Shown here one piece after another: positions 53,886-61,582 of a DNA stretch of 64,000 nucleotides (its first letter is position 1; each line of letters opens with the position of its first letter). A program made the translations under genes and the position numbers. Under the pieces are notes generated by a model that saw only the letters and a list, made by a program, of their open reading frames with translations, was not told the DNA's origin and made no database searches. The DNA comes from an uncultured bacterium (GTDB lineage: Bacteria > Chloroflexota > Anaerolineae > J036 > Brachytrichaceae): assembly GCA_903873965.1 (NCBI GenBank), contig CAIQQO010000347.1, positions 1 to 64,000 of the forward strand, written 5' to 3'.

Positions 53886-55730
53886 ATGGAATTTCAACCT
53901 TTCGCTTCTGGCGTCGCTGACGCTGCTACGTCCGGCACTGCGAAAAGTGCCGCAGGCGTCGACTGGGACTTAAGCGTTTTCTTCAATAGCCCTCTGGATC
54001 CACGCATTGATGACGCTCTGAAGGAGTGCGCCGTGCGTGTTGATGCCTTTGAGGCTACCTATCGCGGTGCACTCAAAGTGTCTGGCGGACCATCGGTTGA
54101 ACTGTTATTGACAGCGCTTCGGGAATCCGAAAATCTTCAGTCAACCCTTGTCCAGATCAGCGCCTATTCCTCACTGTTGTACGCGGCAGATACAACTAAG
54201 GATTCCCATCGCTCACTGGTTCAACGCGTTGAAGAAGCCATGACAGCCCTGCGTAACAAAATGCTTTTCTTTGATCTGGAATGGCTCGAAGTGGCTGACG
54301 CCGACGCCGAGAGGTTGATTCAACATCCATCACTTGCCAACTATAGCCACTACTTAAGAAGTGAGAGACGCTTCAAGCCGCATGCACTCAGCGAGCCTGA
54401 AGAAAAGCTGATGAACGACATGAACATGACCGGGATCAGCGCCTGGCAGAAACTCTTCACGGAAGTTACCTCGTCTCTGCGTTATAAGGTTGAGAAGGAT
54501 GGCGAGGTTAAGGAACTGAATCAGGGGCAGGTGCTGGCCTTGTTGCGCGATCCCGATCGTGAGTTGCGCCGGCGCGCGTTTGACTCTTTGTATTCCACCC
54601 TACAGTCAAATGGCCAGGTGCTGTCGTTTATCTATGACACACGTTTCCAGGATCACCTGGTCAGCAATCGGCTGCGCCACTATACCGATCCCATGGCCCC
54701 GCGACATCTGGCCAACGAAATTGACGGCGCCGCAGTAAAAGCGATGATGACAGCCGTAGAGCGCAATTACCCTCTGGCACAGCGTTACTTCAAGATGAAG
54801 TCAAAGCTCATGGGATTGCCCGGCCTGGAATTGTTCGATCAATATGCGCCCTTGTTTGATGCAAAGGAGTCCTACAGTTACGACGCAGCCCGGGGCGTGA
54901 TTTTACGGGCATTGCAGCGGTTTTCACCGGAATTCGAAACGATTGCAGCGCGTTTTTACAACGAAAACTGGATTGATGCTGATCCGCGCACGGGCAAACG
55001 GGGTGGGGCGTTCTGTGCGGGTATTGCGCCTGAAGTCCATCCATACATCTTGTGCAGTTTTAACGACGACATGCGCGATGTCATGACGGTAGCGCACGAA
55101 TTGGGTCATGGCATTCACTTCTATTTGAGCGCACAGCAGTCTTTGTTTAATTACTATATGAGCCTGCCTGTGGCGGAAACGGCCAGTGTGTTCTCGGAGA
55201 TGTTGGTATTCGATGACTTGCTGACGCAACTAGCAGACCCGCGAAAGCGTTTGGCTTTGATCTGCGGAAAACTGGAAGACAGCTTCGCCACAGTGTTTCG
55301 GCAGACTGTATTGACGCGATTTGAGGAAGCCGTTTATGCAGCGCGGGCCAATGGCCGATTGAGCGCAGAAGCGATTGGCAAAATCTGGATTGAAGCGAAT
55401 GCTCCTTACTACGGTGATGCAGTGCAACTAACAAAGGGCTACGAATGGGGCTGGTCCTATATCCCACATTTTATCAACACGCCATTCTATTGTTATGCCT
55501 ATTCATTCGGTGAATTGCTGGTACTTGCCTTATACGGCAAGTACCGCAGAGAAGGCCAACCTTTTGTGCCCAAATATCGCGCCTTGCTGGAATCTGGTGG
55601 CAGCCTGTCTCCTAGAGACCAGATGGCCGCAATCGGTATCGATATTCATGACGCGGCATTCTGGCAGGTTGGATTTGATGAGTTGGAGCGCCTTGTCGTC
55701 GAAGCCGAAAAGCTAGCGCAGAATGCTTGA
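53886..55730 (+). CDS. pepF: Oligoendopeptidase F
   Basis: This cytoplasmic zinc peptidase (614 residues) of the M3B family cuts short peptides. The active site is H404-E-L-G-H408 within VAHELGHGIHFYLS, and downstream VAETASVFSEML holds the third zinc ligand Glu. Length matches the family (about 600). It precedes the oligopeptide transporter gene cluster, whose promoter overlaps its stop codon. It probably degrades imported peptides. Confidence 0.92.
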   Translation: MEFQPFASGVADAATSGTAKSAAGVDWDLSVFFNSPLDPRIDDALKECAVRVDAFEATYRGALKVSGGPSVELLLTALRESENLQSTLVQISAYSSLLYAADTTKDSHRSLVQRVEEAMTALRNKMLFFDLEWLEVADADAERLIQHPSLANYSHYLRSERRFKPHALSEPEEKLMNDMNMTGISAWQKLFTEVTSSLRYKVEKDGEVKELNQGQVLALLRDPDRELRRRAFDSLYSTLQSNGQVLSFIYDTRFQDHLVSNRLRHYTDPMAPRHLANEIDGAAVKAMMTAVERNYPLAQRYFKMKSKLMGLPGLELFDQYAPLFDAKESYSYDAARGVILRALQRFSPEFETIAARFYNENWIDADPRTGKRGGAFCAGIAPEVHPYILCSFNDDMRDVMTVAHELGHGIHFYLSAQQSLFNYYMSLPVAETASVFSEMLVFDDLLTQLADPRKRLALICGKLEDSFATVFRQTVLTRFEEAVYAARANGRLSAEAIGKIWIEANAPYYGDAVQLTKGYEWGWSYIPHFINTPFYCYAYSFGELLVLALYGKYRREGQPFVPKYRALLESGGSLSPRDQMAAIGIDIHDAAFWQVGFDELERLVVEAEKLAQNA

Positions 55731-55755
55731 CAATATTGCATCGAATGTTGATAAT
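55727..55755 (+). promoter_or_regulatory. Promoter of the oligopeptide transporter operon
   Basis: -35 TTGACA (55727-55732), which contains the pepF stop codon, is followed after 17 bases by GATAAT (55750-55755). Transcription near 55762 leaves an mRNA leader of about 210 bases with a TTACTT-CGAA-AAGTAA hairpin. No protein is recognised in the leader. Confidence 0.75.
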
Positions 55756-55971
55756 CATGCACAATTACTCGGAGCCTTCGACGGTGGCACCTGGTACTAT
55801 CATGAGATTACTTCGAAAAGTAACACACTGTTATGATTCCGTTACTAGTCAACATGGATCATGTATGGAGGTGTATCGACTAAAGTAATACCTTACTTCA
55901 CACAGAAAAAGCACACTACGGTTGCATCGAGAGTCCTTTCAAATGAGTTTTTCCTTAAGGAGGAAGAAGAA

Positions 55972-57975
55972 ATGTCAGACAAGAAGTTGTGGCGTATTGC
56001 TAGTGTCCTAGCCGCCGGAAGCATGATCTTGGCCGCCTGCGGAAATGCGACACCTGTCATCCAGACTGTTGTTGTTAAAGAAACATCCGCGGCTATTAAA
56101 GAAACGTCTATCGTCGTACAGACAAAAGAAGTTTCGGTCGAAAAGACAGTTCAAGTGCAGGTAACTGCGCAGCCGAAGGCCGATTGGTCTACACCGCATC
56201 CAATCCTGAGTGATCTTAAGGTCCGTCAGGCATTGGCCACTTGTGTTAACCGCGATGACCTGATTTCATCAGTTTATCCCACGTTATCTGCCGAAGATAA
56301 AGCCAAACTACGCATGAATACGTTCATCGTAAAAGGCACTAAGTTCTATGACTCCAATGCCATTGATTACACCTATGACATCACGGCTGCAGGCAAGTTG
56401 CTTGATGATGCTGGGTGGACAATCCCCAAAAATGGTGGATTCCGCGAAAATGCTAATGGTGACCGACTAACTCTGAAGTTCCTCACCACAAATGCATCGT
56501 TCCGCCAGACTTGGAGCGCGGTCATGATCAAGCAACTGGAAAAGTGCGGCGTGCAGCTCGCAGCTTCCTATGTTGCCGGCGCTGCGTATCTCTTCTCGCC
56601 ACAGACTGGTCTGCGCCGCCGCGACTTTGAACTCTCGGCGTATGCGTGGGTTGGTCAGCCTGATCCAGGCGGTGAAACGCTTTATGCTTGTAACCAGGTC
56701 CCATTGCCAACCAATGGCTGGGCTGGTCAGAACTACATGGGTTGGTGCAACCAGGCAGCCAGCACTGCCATTCGATTGGCTAACAATACGCTGGATGAGA
56801 ATGAGCGCAAGAAGCAGTATGCCATTGTGCAGGAAGAATTCGCCAAGGATATGGTGAGTTTGCCTTTGTTCCAGCGCGCAGAAGCTGCGGCATATAACAA
56901 GAACCTCAAGGGTATCAAGTTCGATGCAACGCAGTACTATCCCGCCAGCGTGACAGACTGGGAATTGCCCGGCAAGGACACCGTTGTTCTCGGGTTGTCA
57001 CAGGAACCGTCATCACTGTTCGGCCTGGTTGAAGATTCCTACGCAACATCGCTCGTTAACCAGTTCCTTTTCAGCCAGGATATCACTGGGTACAACTATG
57101 ACTACCAGGGTCCAGGCATGGTTGATCAGAAGCTGCCGAAAATAGACAATGGTGGCGCCAAGCTGGTTGAAGTTGCCGTCAAAGATGGCGACAAGCTTGT
57201 CAACTCAACCGGCGACATTGGCACCTTCAAGGGTGGCAAACTGTTGGACGGCGATGGAAAAGAGTTGACTGCAAAGGTCAAGAACTTGAAGGGCGAGGAA
57301 ATCGACCTGAAAGAAGGCGTCATGATGCCGCAGCTCGCTGTCACATTTAAGTTTGTGCCGCGCACATGGTCAGATGGTCAGGCAGTCAGCAAGGCCGATT
57401 ACCAGTTGGGCTACAAACTCACCTGCGACCACACTTCGGGCGCAGTGAGTTACGATACATGCGACCGAACTTCGAAGGTAGACTTCGCGACGGACACTTC
57501 ATACACCATCACGTACGTGCCCGGCTACACCCCGCCGTTGTATTACGCGACGCCCCTGTTCGGTGCGTATCCGGCGCACCGCGTGATTGAGTCTGAAGGC
57601 CCGTACAAGGGTAAGACGCTTGCTGATGTAGAGCCGAAAGACTTCGGCACACTCAAGGAAATCCTTGAGACGCCGCTAGGCGATGGCCCCTACATCCTGA
57701 CGAAGTGGGATAAGCAGCAGCGCATGGTTCTGACTGCTAACCCGAAGTACTGGGGACCTCAACCCAAAGTGAAGAACCTCATCATTCAGTTCTTTGCTGA
57801 AAGCCAGGGCGCCATTGCGGCTATGCTGCAAGGTACAGTCGACATCATTGGTGGTGAAACACTGCCAGGACCTGATAAGTCCATCCATGATGCGGCTGCG
57901 GCTGGCAAGTTGAACGAAGTTGTGATACCAAGTGCTACCTGGGAGCATCTGGACATTAACCTCTTTGTAAAGTAG
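55972..57975 (+). CDS. Oligopeptide-binding lipoprotein with circularly permuted domain order
   Basis: This family-5 (OppA/DppA-type) extracellular receptor has 667 residues. AAGGAGG precedes the ATG and a lipoprotein signal ends in LAAC (Cys23), then a Thr/Val/Lys linker. Residues about 71-333 match what is normally the C-terminal half: DLKVRQALATCVNRDDL, LLDDAGW, GQNYMGWCN and PLFQRAEAAAYNKNLKG. Residues about 334-667 match the normal N-terminal half: VVLGLSQEPSSL, WSDGQAVSKADYQLGY, GDGPYILTKWD, and end at SATWEHLDINLFVK, which in normal members leads directly into the VRQA block. The gene is intact and directly precedes matching permeases. It is probably functional, but the order is most unusual. 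Confidence 0.85.
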   Translation: MSDKKLWRIASVLAAGSMILAACGNATPVIQTVVVKETSAAIKETSIVVQTKEVSVEKTVQVQVTAQPKADWSTPHPILSDLKVRQALATCVNRDDLISSVYPTLSAEDKAKLRMNTFIVKGTKFYDSNAIDYTYDITAAGKLLDDAGWTIPKNGGFRENANGDRLTLKFLTTNASFRQTWSAVMIKQLEKCGVQLAASYVAGAAYLFSPQTGLRRRDFELSAYAWVGQPDPGGETLYACNQVPLPTNGWAGQNYMGWCNQAASTAIRLANNTLDENERKKQYAIVQEEFAKDMVSLPLFQRAEAAAYNKNLKGIKFDATQYYPASVTDWELPGKDTVVLGLSQEPSSLFGLVEDSYATSLVNQFLFSQDITGYNYDYQGPGMVDQKLPKIDNGGAKLVEVAVKDGDKLVNSTGDIGTFKGGKLLDGDGKELTAKVKNLKGEEIDLKEGVMMPQLAVTFKFVPRTWSDGQAVSKADYQLGYKLTCDHTSGAVSYDTCDRTSKVDFATDTSYTITYVPGYTPPLYYATPLFGAYPAHRVIESEGPYKGKTLADVEPKDFGTLKEILETPLGDGPYILTKWDKQQRMVLTANPKYWGPQPKVKNLIIQFFAESQGAIAAMLQGTVDIIGGETLPGPDKSIHDAAAAGKLNEVVIPSATWEHLDINLFVK

Positions 57976-58184: not shown

Positions 58185-59378
58185 ATGGTGACCTATCTCG
58201 TTCGCAGGCTCTTCCAGATGGTCTTTGTGCTGTTGGTTGTGACCTTTGTTTCGTATACTCTGTTCTACGTGGCTCCAGGTGGGCCTTTAGCAGCAATTGG
58301 ACAACTGCAAGGTGCAAAGGGTGGGAAAATCCGCGAAGAGGACCTTGTGCGCGTGATGCAGCAGTATGAATTGGACCTATATCATGTGCCACGATTCCTG
58401 CGCTGGATTATTGGTGAGCCACGGGGTCCCATCACTATTTTCGGGCAAGAGATTTTAGGCGCACTTGAAATTGGTTGCTTAAAAGAAGGCCAGGCGCAAA
58501 GGGTTTATCCAGACGGACGTGTAGAAACCACAAATTGCGTCAAACCTGTCTATCTTAAAGACCTCGTAGGTCGCACTACAACGCTGGGTATCCTGCGCTT
58601 TGATTTCGGACGATCACAACAAATATCACGCGGTATGCCAGTGATGGATCTGCTTGGGACACGAATTGTGCCAACACTGGTTCTCATGGGTATATCAGAA
58701 TTGTTGGCATTGCTTATTGCCGTGCCCATTGGCATATATTCAGCAGTTAAACAATACTCGCGCTTTGACTATTTTATTACCACGGTAACTTTTGTTGGTT
58801 CTGCAATGCCCACCTTATTTTTAGGGGTCATGGCAATACTCGTGTTTGGCTTGCTGTTTAAAGATATTGGACTACCATTTCTGCCTGCTCAAGGCGCTAC
58901 CTCAAATGTAGAGATCGCTGTCCCCTTGTTTGGGATGATCACACCTGAATCTATCGGGGATAAGTTATGGCATCTGGCAATGCCTGTCGGTGTACTGACT
59001 TTTGTTAACCTGGCAGGTTGGAGCCGGTTCATTCGTTCAAGTATGCTTGAGGTACTGCGACAGGACTATATTCGTACGGCCAGGTCAAAAGGGCTTGAAG
59101 AGACAACCGTTATCCTGAAGCATGCCCTCCGTAACGCACTCATTCCCTTTGTGACCCTGGTGGTTACACTGATCCCTGCAGTATTCGGAGGCGCCATTAT
59201 TACTGAGTCGGTCTTTAGCTGGCCAGGCATGGGAAGGCTATACATTGAGGCATTGAACCTTAGCGATTATCCAGTAGCTATGGCGACCTTAATGATATCG
59301 ACATTTCTAACCCTCTTTGCATTCCTCCTTTCTGATTTACTCTATCCAATTGTCGATCCGCGAATTCGACTCAACTAA
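58185..59378 (+). CDS. Oligopeptide ABC transporter permease (OppB/DppB type)
   Basis: This 397-residue BPD_transp_1 permease has an N-terminal membrane segment (VTYLVRRLFQMVF), a long extracytoplasmic loop of about 110 residues, then five more helices. The ATPase-docking loop reads EVLRQDYIRTARSKGLEE, the family's EAA motif. The C-terminal FSWPGMGRLYIEAL and LLYPIVDPRIRLN are typical. The loop is longer than in E. coli OppB but common in Chloroflexota-type transporters. The next gene begins 22 bases on. Confidence 0.88.
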   Translation: MVTYLVRRLFQMVFVLLVVTFVSYTLFYVAPGGPLAAIGQLQGAKGGKIREEDLVRVMQQYELDLYHVPRFLRWIIGEPRGPITIFGQEILGALEIGCLKEGQAQRVYPDGRVETTNCVKPVYLKDLVGRTTTLGILRFDFGRSQQISRGMPVMDLLGTRIVPTLVLMGISELLALLIAVPIGIYSAVKQYSRFDYFITTVTFVGSAMPTLFLGVMAILVFGLLFKDIGLPFLPAQGATSNVEIAVPLFGMITPESIGDKLWHLAMPVGVLTFVNLAGWSRFIRSSMLEVLRQDYIRTARSKGLEETTVILKHALRNALIPFVTLVVTLIPAVFGGAIITESVFSWPGMGRLYIEALNLSDYPVAMATLMISTFLTLFAFLLSDLLYPIVDPRIRLN

Positions 59379-59400: not shown

Positions 59401-60378
59401 ATGACGAAACCAGTGTCGATTGTGAAATCAGAAAGTCAATGGAGCATCGTATTTCGACGTTTTCGCAAACATCGAATGGCGATGATTTCACTGGTCATCC
59501 TCGCAGTTCTATTTGCTGCGTCGATATTGGCGCCAGTCATAGCGCCATTCGGACGCGATGATATTGATGTCAGTAATATAGCGCGCTTTGCGCCGCCCAT
59601 GTCCGTTGACGCAGGCAATGGGCGCCTGCATATTCTTGGGACAGATCATCTAGGTCGGGATTTGTTTACACGACTTCTTTATGCAGCGAGAGTCACGCTA
59701 TCCGTTGCATTTACCGTTGCGACGCTTGGGTCTGTCATCGGTATCACTTTTGGAACGTTAGCCGGATATTACCGCGGCATCATAGATACCATACTGATGC
59801 GTTTCCTGGATTTCTGGGCCAATCTACCTGACTTTCCTATACTGTTGATTGTGGCATCGATTATGGTGCGCGATGATAAACTACTTCCAATACCACCCTT
59901 TATCGTGTCGTTTATGGGTAACATCATGTTGCTCGCTGATCGCGAGGCGCGACTAGTGGTGGTTGTCATCGTAGTGCTGACAGTCTTTGGCTGGGTGGGA
60001 TCAGCTCGACTCATGCGAGGCATGGTGCTTTCCGTTCGCGAGCGCGATTTCATCGAATCGTCACGAGCACTCGGGGCGAACAATGTTCGTATTATGGCGA
60101 AACACATTGTTCCGAATGCTTTTCCACCTCTCATTGTGTCTTACACATTAGGACTCGCCGGCGCACTAACTTTGGAAACAGCTTTAAGCTTTCTTGGCTT
60201 AGGTGTTCAGCCGCCAACGCCAACATGGGGAAATATGCTTTCTTTTTCGACCGGATATATGCTTGAGCAACCGTTCTTGCCATTGATTCCCGGTTTCCCT
60301 GTATTACTCTGTTCACTGGCTTTTAATTTCATCGGTGATGGACTGCGCGATGCATTGGATCCACGGTTGAAGATGTAA
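59401..60378 (+). CDS. Oligopeptide ABC transporter permease (OppC/DppC type)
   Basis: This 325-residue permease partners the OppB-type protein. The OppC N-terminal signature FRRFRKHRMAMISLVIL leads into the first helix, then LGTDHLGRDLFTRLLYAARVTL, and the EAA loop is SVRERDFIESSRALGANN. It ends AFNFIGDGLRDALDPRLKM, as usual. The start at ATG 59401 is chosen by homology; no good ribosome site is seen, and the open frame further upstream overlaps the previous gene. Confidence 0.88.
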   Translation: MTKPVSIVKSESQWSIVFRRFRKHRMAMISLVILAVLFAASILAPVIAPFGRDDIDVSNIARFAPPMSVDAGNGRLHILGTDHLGRDLFTRLLYAARVTLSVAFTVATLGSVIGITFGTLAGYYRGIIDTILMRFLDFWANLPDFPILLIVASIMVRDDKLLPIPPFIVSFMGNIMLLADREARLVVVVIVVLTVFGWVGSARLMRGMVLSVRERDFIESSRALGANNVRIMAKHIVPNAFPPLIVSYTLGLAGALTLETALSFLGLGVQPPTPTWGNMLSFSTGYMLEQPFLPLIPGFPVLLCSLAFNFIGDGLRDALDPRLKM

Positions 60379-60538: not shown

Positions 60539-61582
60539 ATGGGTGCTAATGTGAAGGCCGATTCACCCTCTATTGCCGGCTCCAATGCGAGCGGCTCAGC
60601 CAAGGATGAAAATCTGCTTGATATTCAAGGGCTAAAGACGTACTTCTATACAGAAGATGGAGTCGTTAAAGCTGTTGATGGCGTTGATCTGCAAGTAAAG
60701 CGCGGTGAGACGCTCGGTATCGTGGGTGAATCCGGCTGTGGAAAGAGTGTTACGTCTCTTTCTGTCATGCGATTGATCGGCGCTCCCGGAAAAGTTATCG
60801 CCGGCAAGATTAACTTTGACGGTAAAAACCTGCTTGCGATGACTGAAAGCCAGATGACGAAGATTCGCGGCAATCGCATCTCGATGATTTTTCAGCAACC
60901 GACAACCTGCCTCAATCCTGTCTTTAAGATTGGCGACCAGGTTTCCGAGGTGTTGAACATTCACCAGAGCCTTGGGAAAGAAGCAGGCATGAAGCGCTCA
61001 ATCGAGTTGCTGCGCATGGTGGGCATCCCTGAGCCCCAGAAACGCATTAATTCCTATCCGCATGAGATATCAGGCGGCCAGGCACAGCGTGTGATGATAG
61101 CGATGGCTTTGGCGTGCGCTCCCGAACTCTTGATTGCTGATGAGCCGACAACAGCGCTCGATGTGACCATTCAGGCGCAGATTCTTGACCTGATGCGTGA
61201 CCTGAGATCCAAGACCGGTACCTCTATCATGCTGATTACGCATGACATGGGTGTTATCGCCGAAATGGCTGACCGCGTGGTTGTGATGTATGCCGGCCAG
61301 ATCGTAGAACAGGCTGATGTAAAAACACTGTTTGCGCATCCCATGCATCCCTACACACAAGGTCTGCTGGGATCGATTCCCGTTCTTGGCACCGTGCGCG
61401 AGCGCCTCGATGTCATTCCCGGATCGGTGCCAAATCTGTTGAACCCACCGCCCGGTTGCCGGTTTGAACCGCGTTGCCAGGCCTGTGAAGGTGCCATGCG
61501 CGAGCGGTGCCGTGTAGAGGTTCCGCGGTTGCTTGAGGTCGAGCCTGGTCACTTTGTGCGCAGTTGGCTATACGACAAATAA
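60539..61582 (+). CDS. Oligopeptide ABC transporter ATP-binding protein (OppD/DppD type)
   Basis: This 347-residue ATPase energises peptide import. Walker [11 protein letters not shown]-loop [12 protein letters not shown], signature [15 protein letters not shown], Walker [14 protein letters not shown] and switch His [11 protein letters not shown] are present. The C-terminal oligopeptide-transporter extension has [14 protein letters not shown]...RCRVE, a Cys-rich motif that in some homologues binds an Fe-S cluster. GAGGAG precedes the ATG. It is followed by its OppF-type partner. Confidence 0.9.

Follow-up and report, generated by a model that had tools for sequence, protein, structure and literature searches.

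Gene content of the locus

The window (the whole stretch of DNA analysed here, 64,000 nt in length) contains an Opp/Dpp-type importer operon, comprising a receptor, two permeases and two oligo_HPY ATPases. The receptor is encoded by one uninterrupted open reading frame on the plus strand and is a lipoprotein of 667 aa. The features of the locus, given as window coordinates and strand, are the following:

53886..55730 (+), M3-family oligoendopeptidase (pepF-like), the upstream neighbour; TIGR02290, 642.7 bits, above the cut-off
55727..55755 (+), promoter-like TTGACA-17-GATAAT where pepF ends; agrees with the consensus at 11 of 12 positions
55957..55963 (+), ribosome-binding site AAGGAGG (Shine-Dalgarno), ahead of the ATG at 55972; from the sequence
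55972..57975 (+), permuted family-5 substrate-binding lipoprotein; family profiles, circular-order matches and doubled-homologue alignment
55972..56037 (+), lipoprotein signal peptide, aa 1-22, with lipobox LAA-Cys23; from the sequence
56038..56193 (+), aa 23-74: Cys23, which carries the lipid anchor, then a low-complexity tether; disorder predicted for most of it
56194..56940 (+), aa 75-323: half that is C-terminal in ordinary members, made up of lobe 2 (domain III) and the C-terminal segment of lobe 1; structural match
56857..56898 (+), aa 296-309: strand that probably forms the second crossover between the lobes; model strand 274-287, mapped via the 1dpe range
56941..56979 (+), aa 324-336: junction (SVTDWELPGKD) at which the native C-terminus meets the native N-terminus; comparison with unpermuted L149
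56980..57972 (+), aa 337-667: half that is N-terminal in ordinary members (lobe 1); N-half model compared with DppA and AppA
57910..57957 (+), first crossover (hinge) strand, now C-terminal, aa 647-662, ...TWEHLDINL; full-model strand 625-640
58185..59378 (+), OppB-type permease (perm1); PF00528, best NCBIfam match Opp4B
58275..58640 (+), periplasmic stretch between TM1 and TM2 of perm1, enlarged to ~122 aa and comprising the scoop region and a two-Cys insertion
59401..60378 (+), OppC-type permease (perm2); PF12911 and PF00528, probable start at 59401 inferred from the sequence
60539..61582 (+), OppD-type ATPase; PF00005 and PF08352
61645..62691 (+), OppF-type ATPase; PF00005 and PF08352

A preliminary description of this DNA, made from its letters alone, had placed both blocks of the receptor behind a single lipoprotein signal with a ribosome-binding site, and the reading frame, start codon and LAAC lipobox bear this out. 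The lipobox pattern is present in 129 of the 139 open reading frames of the family. The tether spans ~50 residues (family median 43 aa), and mature residues 1-37 have a pLDDT below 50 in the AlphaFold2 model. The normal promoter that had also been claimed fares less well: the site is there and close to consensus, but one such site was found where shuffled sequences lead one to expect 2.4, so that it constitutes weak evidence.

Order of the two halves

As had been proposed, the window protein is a family-5 (Cluster C, OppA/DppA type) receptor in which the half that is normally C-terminal stands ahead of the one that is normally N-terminal. The match to PF00496 (SBP_bac_5), with 136.9 bits against a gathering score of 32.4, falls in two separate stretches, the better of which aligns residues 465-662 with profile positions 28-206. 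Residues 77-321, in turn, match the C-terminal part of the Opp4A and NikA models (Opp4A 312-547 of 556). In a phmmer comparison with Thermus thermophilus OppA (2d5w), residues 334-401 align with 4-74, 571-665 with 210-311 and 79-314 with 322-562, and these ranges imply a circular order of the halves. The window protein was also aligned locally to 30 unpermuted homologues, each taken singly and doubled. Doubling raised the median score from 274.5 to 469.5 (ratio 1.48-1.92), whereas the ratio was 1.00 in the unpermuted-versus-unpermuted and permuted-versus-permuted controls, and shuffled doubled sequences scored at most 53. A collinear alignment to ordinary family-5 proteins was looked for in the same comparison and not found. 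Across profiles, phmmer and doubled alignment, the standard N-to-C order of the halves was not recovered, identifying the protein as a permuted variant derived from the family. The join, previously placed near position 56970, lies at approximately aa 324-336 (56941-56979). Standard annotation masks this topology, given that profile searches return an ordinary SBP_bac_5 match.

Predicted structure and topology

Venus-flytrap receptors are clamps made of two lobes, and two strands connect these lobes in Cluster C. In published structures, domain III forms one contiguous segment (AliD 297-582, PMC11192437; EppA 303-530, PMC7312458), which in EppA is linked to lobe 1 by strands 295-302 and 531-538 (PMC7312458). 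An AlphaFold2 model of the whole mature window protein, built with 48 family members, reached a pLDDT of 90.0 and a pTM of 0.85. Its C-half (mature residues 50-300) matches 2d5w 311-570 (Z 24.7, 2.1 Å over 231 residues), and mature residues 53-311 superpose on DppA (1dpe) 272-507. Comparison of the whole model follows sequence order and covers only residues ~51-315, and the N-half was therefore folded and searched alone. This model (pLDDT 92.3) matches DppA (1dpp) 1-263 over its residues 6-326 (Z 20.0) and AppA (1xoc) 19-312 over residues 3-330 (Z 22.2, 244 residues, 2.3 Å). Each half is thus predicted to fold as its DppA, 2d5w or AppA counterpart, and the structural matches listed for the whole model and for the N-half are all of the family-5 type. 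Together, the two halves cover DppA almost fully, with the cut between residues 263 and 272.

The positions of the matched ranges place the cut in the loop after the first lobe-to-lobe crossover, which would leave one covalent crossover rather than two and would shift the lipid anchor from lobe 1 to lobe 2. A break in the loop past the first hinge strand would bring domain III first and lobe 1 second, with the old C-terminus passing through a short linker into the old N-terminus. The halves would then rebuild the usual bilobed clamp, in which the first hinge strand is bound non-covalently. This clamp geometry is inferred from the pTM, the range mapping and the behaviour of the strands: the last strand (mature residues 625-640) is modelled with confidence in the whole protein and with low confidence in the N-half folded alone, a pattern that would be expected if the second hinge strand holds the first. 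Compared to ordinary Cluster C receptors of the SBP_bac_5 family (OppA, DppA, AppA and 2d5w), with which it shares both lobes, lipoprotein export, the Opp operon and the Pfam family, the window protein thus differs in its permuted halves and, by prediction, in its single covalent crossover and its anchor on lobe 2.

Operon, partner permease and ligand

The preliminary description had pointed to matching permeases, and the OppB-type and OppC-type genes do lie downstream of the receptor. In 81 of 93 loci (a set in which some genomes were sampled twice), perm1 is the next gene downstream, mostly followed by perm2 and two ATPases. The perm1 proteins of permuted and unpermuted systems differ in the distance that separates TM1 from TM2, which measures 111-127 residues in 77 of 78 permuted systems (219 in the other one) versus 56-80 residues in 19 of 20 unpermuted systems (117 in the remaining one). 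The split in the permease tree matches that between permuted and unpermuted systems. The insertion adjoins the region equivalent to the scoop motif of DppB, which, in Escherichia coli DppABCDF, is located between TM1 and TM2 and enters the receptor cleft (PMC12136057). That transporter shares its architecture with the window system, although its receptor has the normal order and its permease a much shorter TM1-TM2 region. Two cysteines are found in the insertion of the window perm1 (58275-58640) and of the permuted systems listed with it; the insertion is possibly a small disulfide-bonded domain.

The enlarged periplasmic region of perm1 may be adapted to the permuted receptor. However, because receptor and permease are inherited together, the link between them is an association and not proof of co-adaptation, and joint inheritance means that it counts as few evolutionary events. 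In three genus-mates of the window genome (G001-G003), an unpermuted receptor is paired with a related permease. In one of them (G002; L135, C531, at a contig end), the unpermuted receptor follows pepF and has a signal peptide nearly identical to that of the window protein, which suggests that signal and tether modules are exchanged between receptor genes. It is conceivable, albeit on balance doubtful, that the receptor, anchored through lobe 2 and with one covalent crossover to close on, docks on a permease in which the TM1-TM2 region has gained ~45 residues to hold or release it, amounting to a distinct receptor-translocator coupling within the Opp superfamily. If so, the permuted receptor would work with a geometry different from that of ordinary Opp receptors.

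As to the substrate, we adopt oligopeptide import as a working model, because the closest solved relatives (2d5w and AppA) bind oligopeptides and a peptidase is encoded nearby, the M3 oligoendopeptidase gene being located upstream of the window operon and of four related loci. Under this model, the receptor would bind oligopeptides through lobe closure and hand them to its permease pair. The amino terminus of the peptide is faced, in some Opp/Dpp proteins, by an Asp located three positions past a Trp. In the permuted family, this position is mostly occupied by Gln or Glu, so that other ligands are possible; furthermore, nickel, sugars and opines, besides peptides, are ligands of Cluster C relatives with solved structures. 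Import of a non-peptide ligand, such as oligosaccharides or metal chelates, is accordingly an alternative to be taken seriously, even if somewhat less probable in view of the oligopeptide-binding relatives and the neighbouring peptidase. It concerns the ligand only and is compatible with the permutation.

Phylogeny and origin of the permutation

For phylogenetic analysis, 103 permuted and 52 unpermuted sequences were aligned by half and rotated to one register. In FastTree phylogenies built from the full rotated alignment and from each half, C and N, a single branch parts all permuted from all unpermuted sequences, with support of 1.0, 0.998 and 1.0, respectively, and in a maximum-likelihood tree of 88 rows (IQ-TREE, PMSF) the corresponding SH-aLRT value is 100, with one change of state. 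Given one strongly supported branch in each tree, the simplest reading of these sequence data is a single ancestral permutation in Chloroflexota.

The nearest unpermuted sequence, L149 (genome G052), is a contig-edge fragment that runs ...TWEHLDFNLNVPSATNKDKQNLSEPHFALGDVRVRQAI...EVTWNVAEWDLPGQ-stop. Whereas L149 ends at EVTWNVAEWDLPGQ, in the window protein WELPGKD continues straight into DTVVLGLSQEP; the stretch ending TWEHLDINLFVK forms the C-terminus, and HPILSDLKVRQAL comes after the tether. Comparison of these ends implies that the loop linking the first hinge strand to domain III was deleted by the cut and that a few residues bridge the native termini. A search for a full-length unpermuted member of the L149 type revealed none further in the one genome from the order of L149.

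Every duplication route uses two copies of the gene, and the halves may therefore stem from non-identical copies, in the extreme from different subfamilies, which would make the window protein a chimera of two receptor paralogues. We consider this improbable: the trees of both halves put the permuted clade beside the same Chloroflexota subfamily, and L149 joins both ends collinearly. In the scenario that we favour, an ancestral unpermuted Chloroflexota receptor gene would have been permuted once, most likely through tandem duplication followed by fusion of the copies and elimination of their outer halves. Nine loci encode an unpermuted receptor of this broad family directly upstream of the permuted gene and two encode one downstream of the operon, an arrangement that fits tandem duplication. 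Fused N-C-N-C intermediates were searched for within single open reading frames and none was found. The origin by tandem duplication suggested in the preliminary description is thus plausible from the adjacent genes, but its predicted intermediate was not recovered.

One further receptor with the C-then-N order (L133:94-1611, G022:C272) has halves resembling Mycobacterium tuberculosis OppA (Rv1280c), preceded by a signal and tether of the kind found in the permuted family. Either an artefact or an independent permutation may account for it; the same assembly contains another contig that is chimeric at its end (L026), and L133 was not counted as a second permutation event.

Distribution and conservation

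The permuted order is not unique to the window genome and defines an old, conserved clade of Chloroflexota. Searches of related genomes recovered it in more than 100 loci, including 103 distinct open reading frames, all from Chloroflexota. Per half, full-length relatives are mostly 36-62% identical to the window protein. Among the carriers are the isolates Chloroflexus islandicus, Oscillochloris, Chloroploca and Viridilinea, the complete chromosome CP059258.1 and single-contig genomes (G023, G053, G056, G212, G227, G256 and G418). Occurrence beyond Chloroflexota was assessed in one pattern scan of 84,980 species, in which all loci listed (at least 80) were from Chloroflexota. Within an even sample of 400 Chloroflexota genomes, 43 encode a permuted receptor at E <= 1e-60, chiefly in two families (f58 and f94) of a class other than that of the window, together with scattered families of the window's class. 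Nearly all members end six residues past the WEHxD motif, a count in which most entries scored as unmatched read WEHAD and were missed by the pattern. For close pairs, dN/dS amounts to 0.053-0.104 overall and lies in the same range in the C-half and the N-half.

The gene is interrupted in three genomes, by a frameshift at the join (G013, L134:4550-6749), a split within the N-half (G325, L204:5303-7343) and an in-frame TGA (G009, L017), which may reflect sequencing error or real loss. In two additional loci (L131:2152-3747 and L132:2262-3695), the N-half is mostly missing and lobe 2 leads directly into TWEHIDFNL and a C-terminal extension similar to that of certain Chloroflexus paralogues (L107:5755-8220 and L111:5603-8185). 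These paralogues are orphans with an extension of ~160 aa, for which no adjacent permeases and no clear lipobox were found, raising the question of whether permuted proteins have left transport to become sensors or surface proteins. For the main clade, window protein included, such a role is very improbable, as its genes are operonic with Opp-type permeases and ATPases.

Gene decay, against which the preliminary description had argued, is ruled out by the dN/dS values and the family-wide conservation. Assembly artefact, that is, two tandem receptor genes collapsed or mis-joined in a fragmented genome (75% complete, 497 contigs), has next to no chance of being correct despite the chimeric contig end in the related assembly G022, because the same order, join and C-terminus recur in independent assemblies, isolates and single-contig chromosomes, across more than 100 loci with 31-62% identity per half to the window protein. 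Sequence, phylogeny, predicted structure, synteny and selection all favour permutation over decay or misassembly. Taken as a whole, the window protein is very likely a functional, circularly permuted Cluster C lipoprotein that serves as the receptor of an Opp-type ABC importer and was permuted once, most probably via tandem duplication.

Relation to known receptors and implications

In the literature searched, we found no report of a permuted OppA-type (Cluster C) receptor or of one from Chloroflexota, and solute, periplasmic and ABC-transporter proteins go unmentioned in the main text of the CIRPIN preprint (PMC12667903). The preliminary description knew of no permuted OppA-type receptor, in agreement with this search of Cluster C; in Cluster B, a permuted receptor has been described. 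TpMglB-2 (Tp0684) of Treponema pallidum is a permuted, lipid-anchored glucose receptor with demonstrated ligand binding and conformational change, for which the authors put forward the designation 'Type Ic / Cluster Bc' along with the idea of an adaptation to tethering (PMC4990184). Both are naturally permuted, lipid-anchored receptors of ABC importers and bilobed (the window protein by range mapping), and the Chloroflexota clade is the Cluster C counterpart of TpMglB-2. The cuts differ, however: in TpMglB-2 the N lobe itself is cut and a fourth crossover arises, whereas in the window clade the cut is predicted to lie beside the hinge and to remove one. Pneumococcal AliC (PMC11192437), by contrast, is a domain-swapped dimer of two chains with normal order, unlike the gene-level permutation described here.

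A clade of receptors that, by predicted topology, retain one covalent strand would provide a natural test of whether closure needs both strands, and an anchor on the other lobe would likewise test how receptor orientation couples to the permease. Given that the clade is present in cultured Chloroflexales, it is open to direct study.
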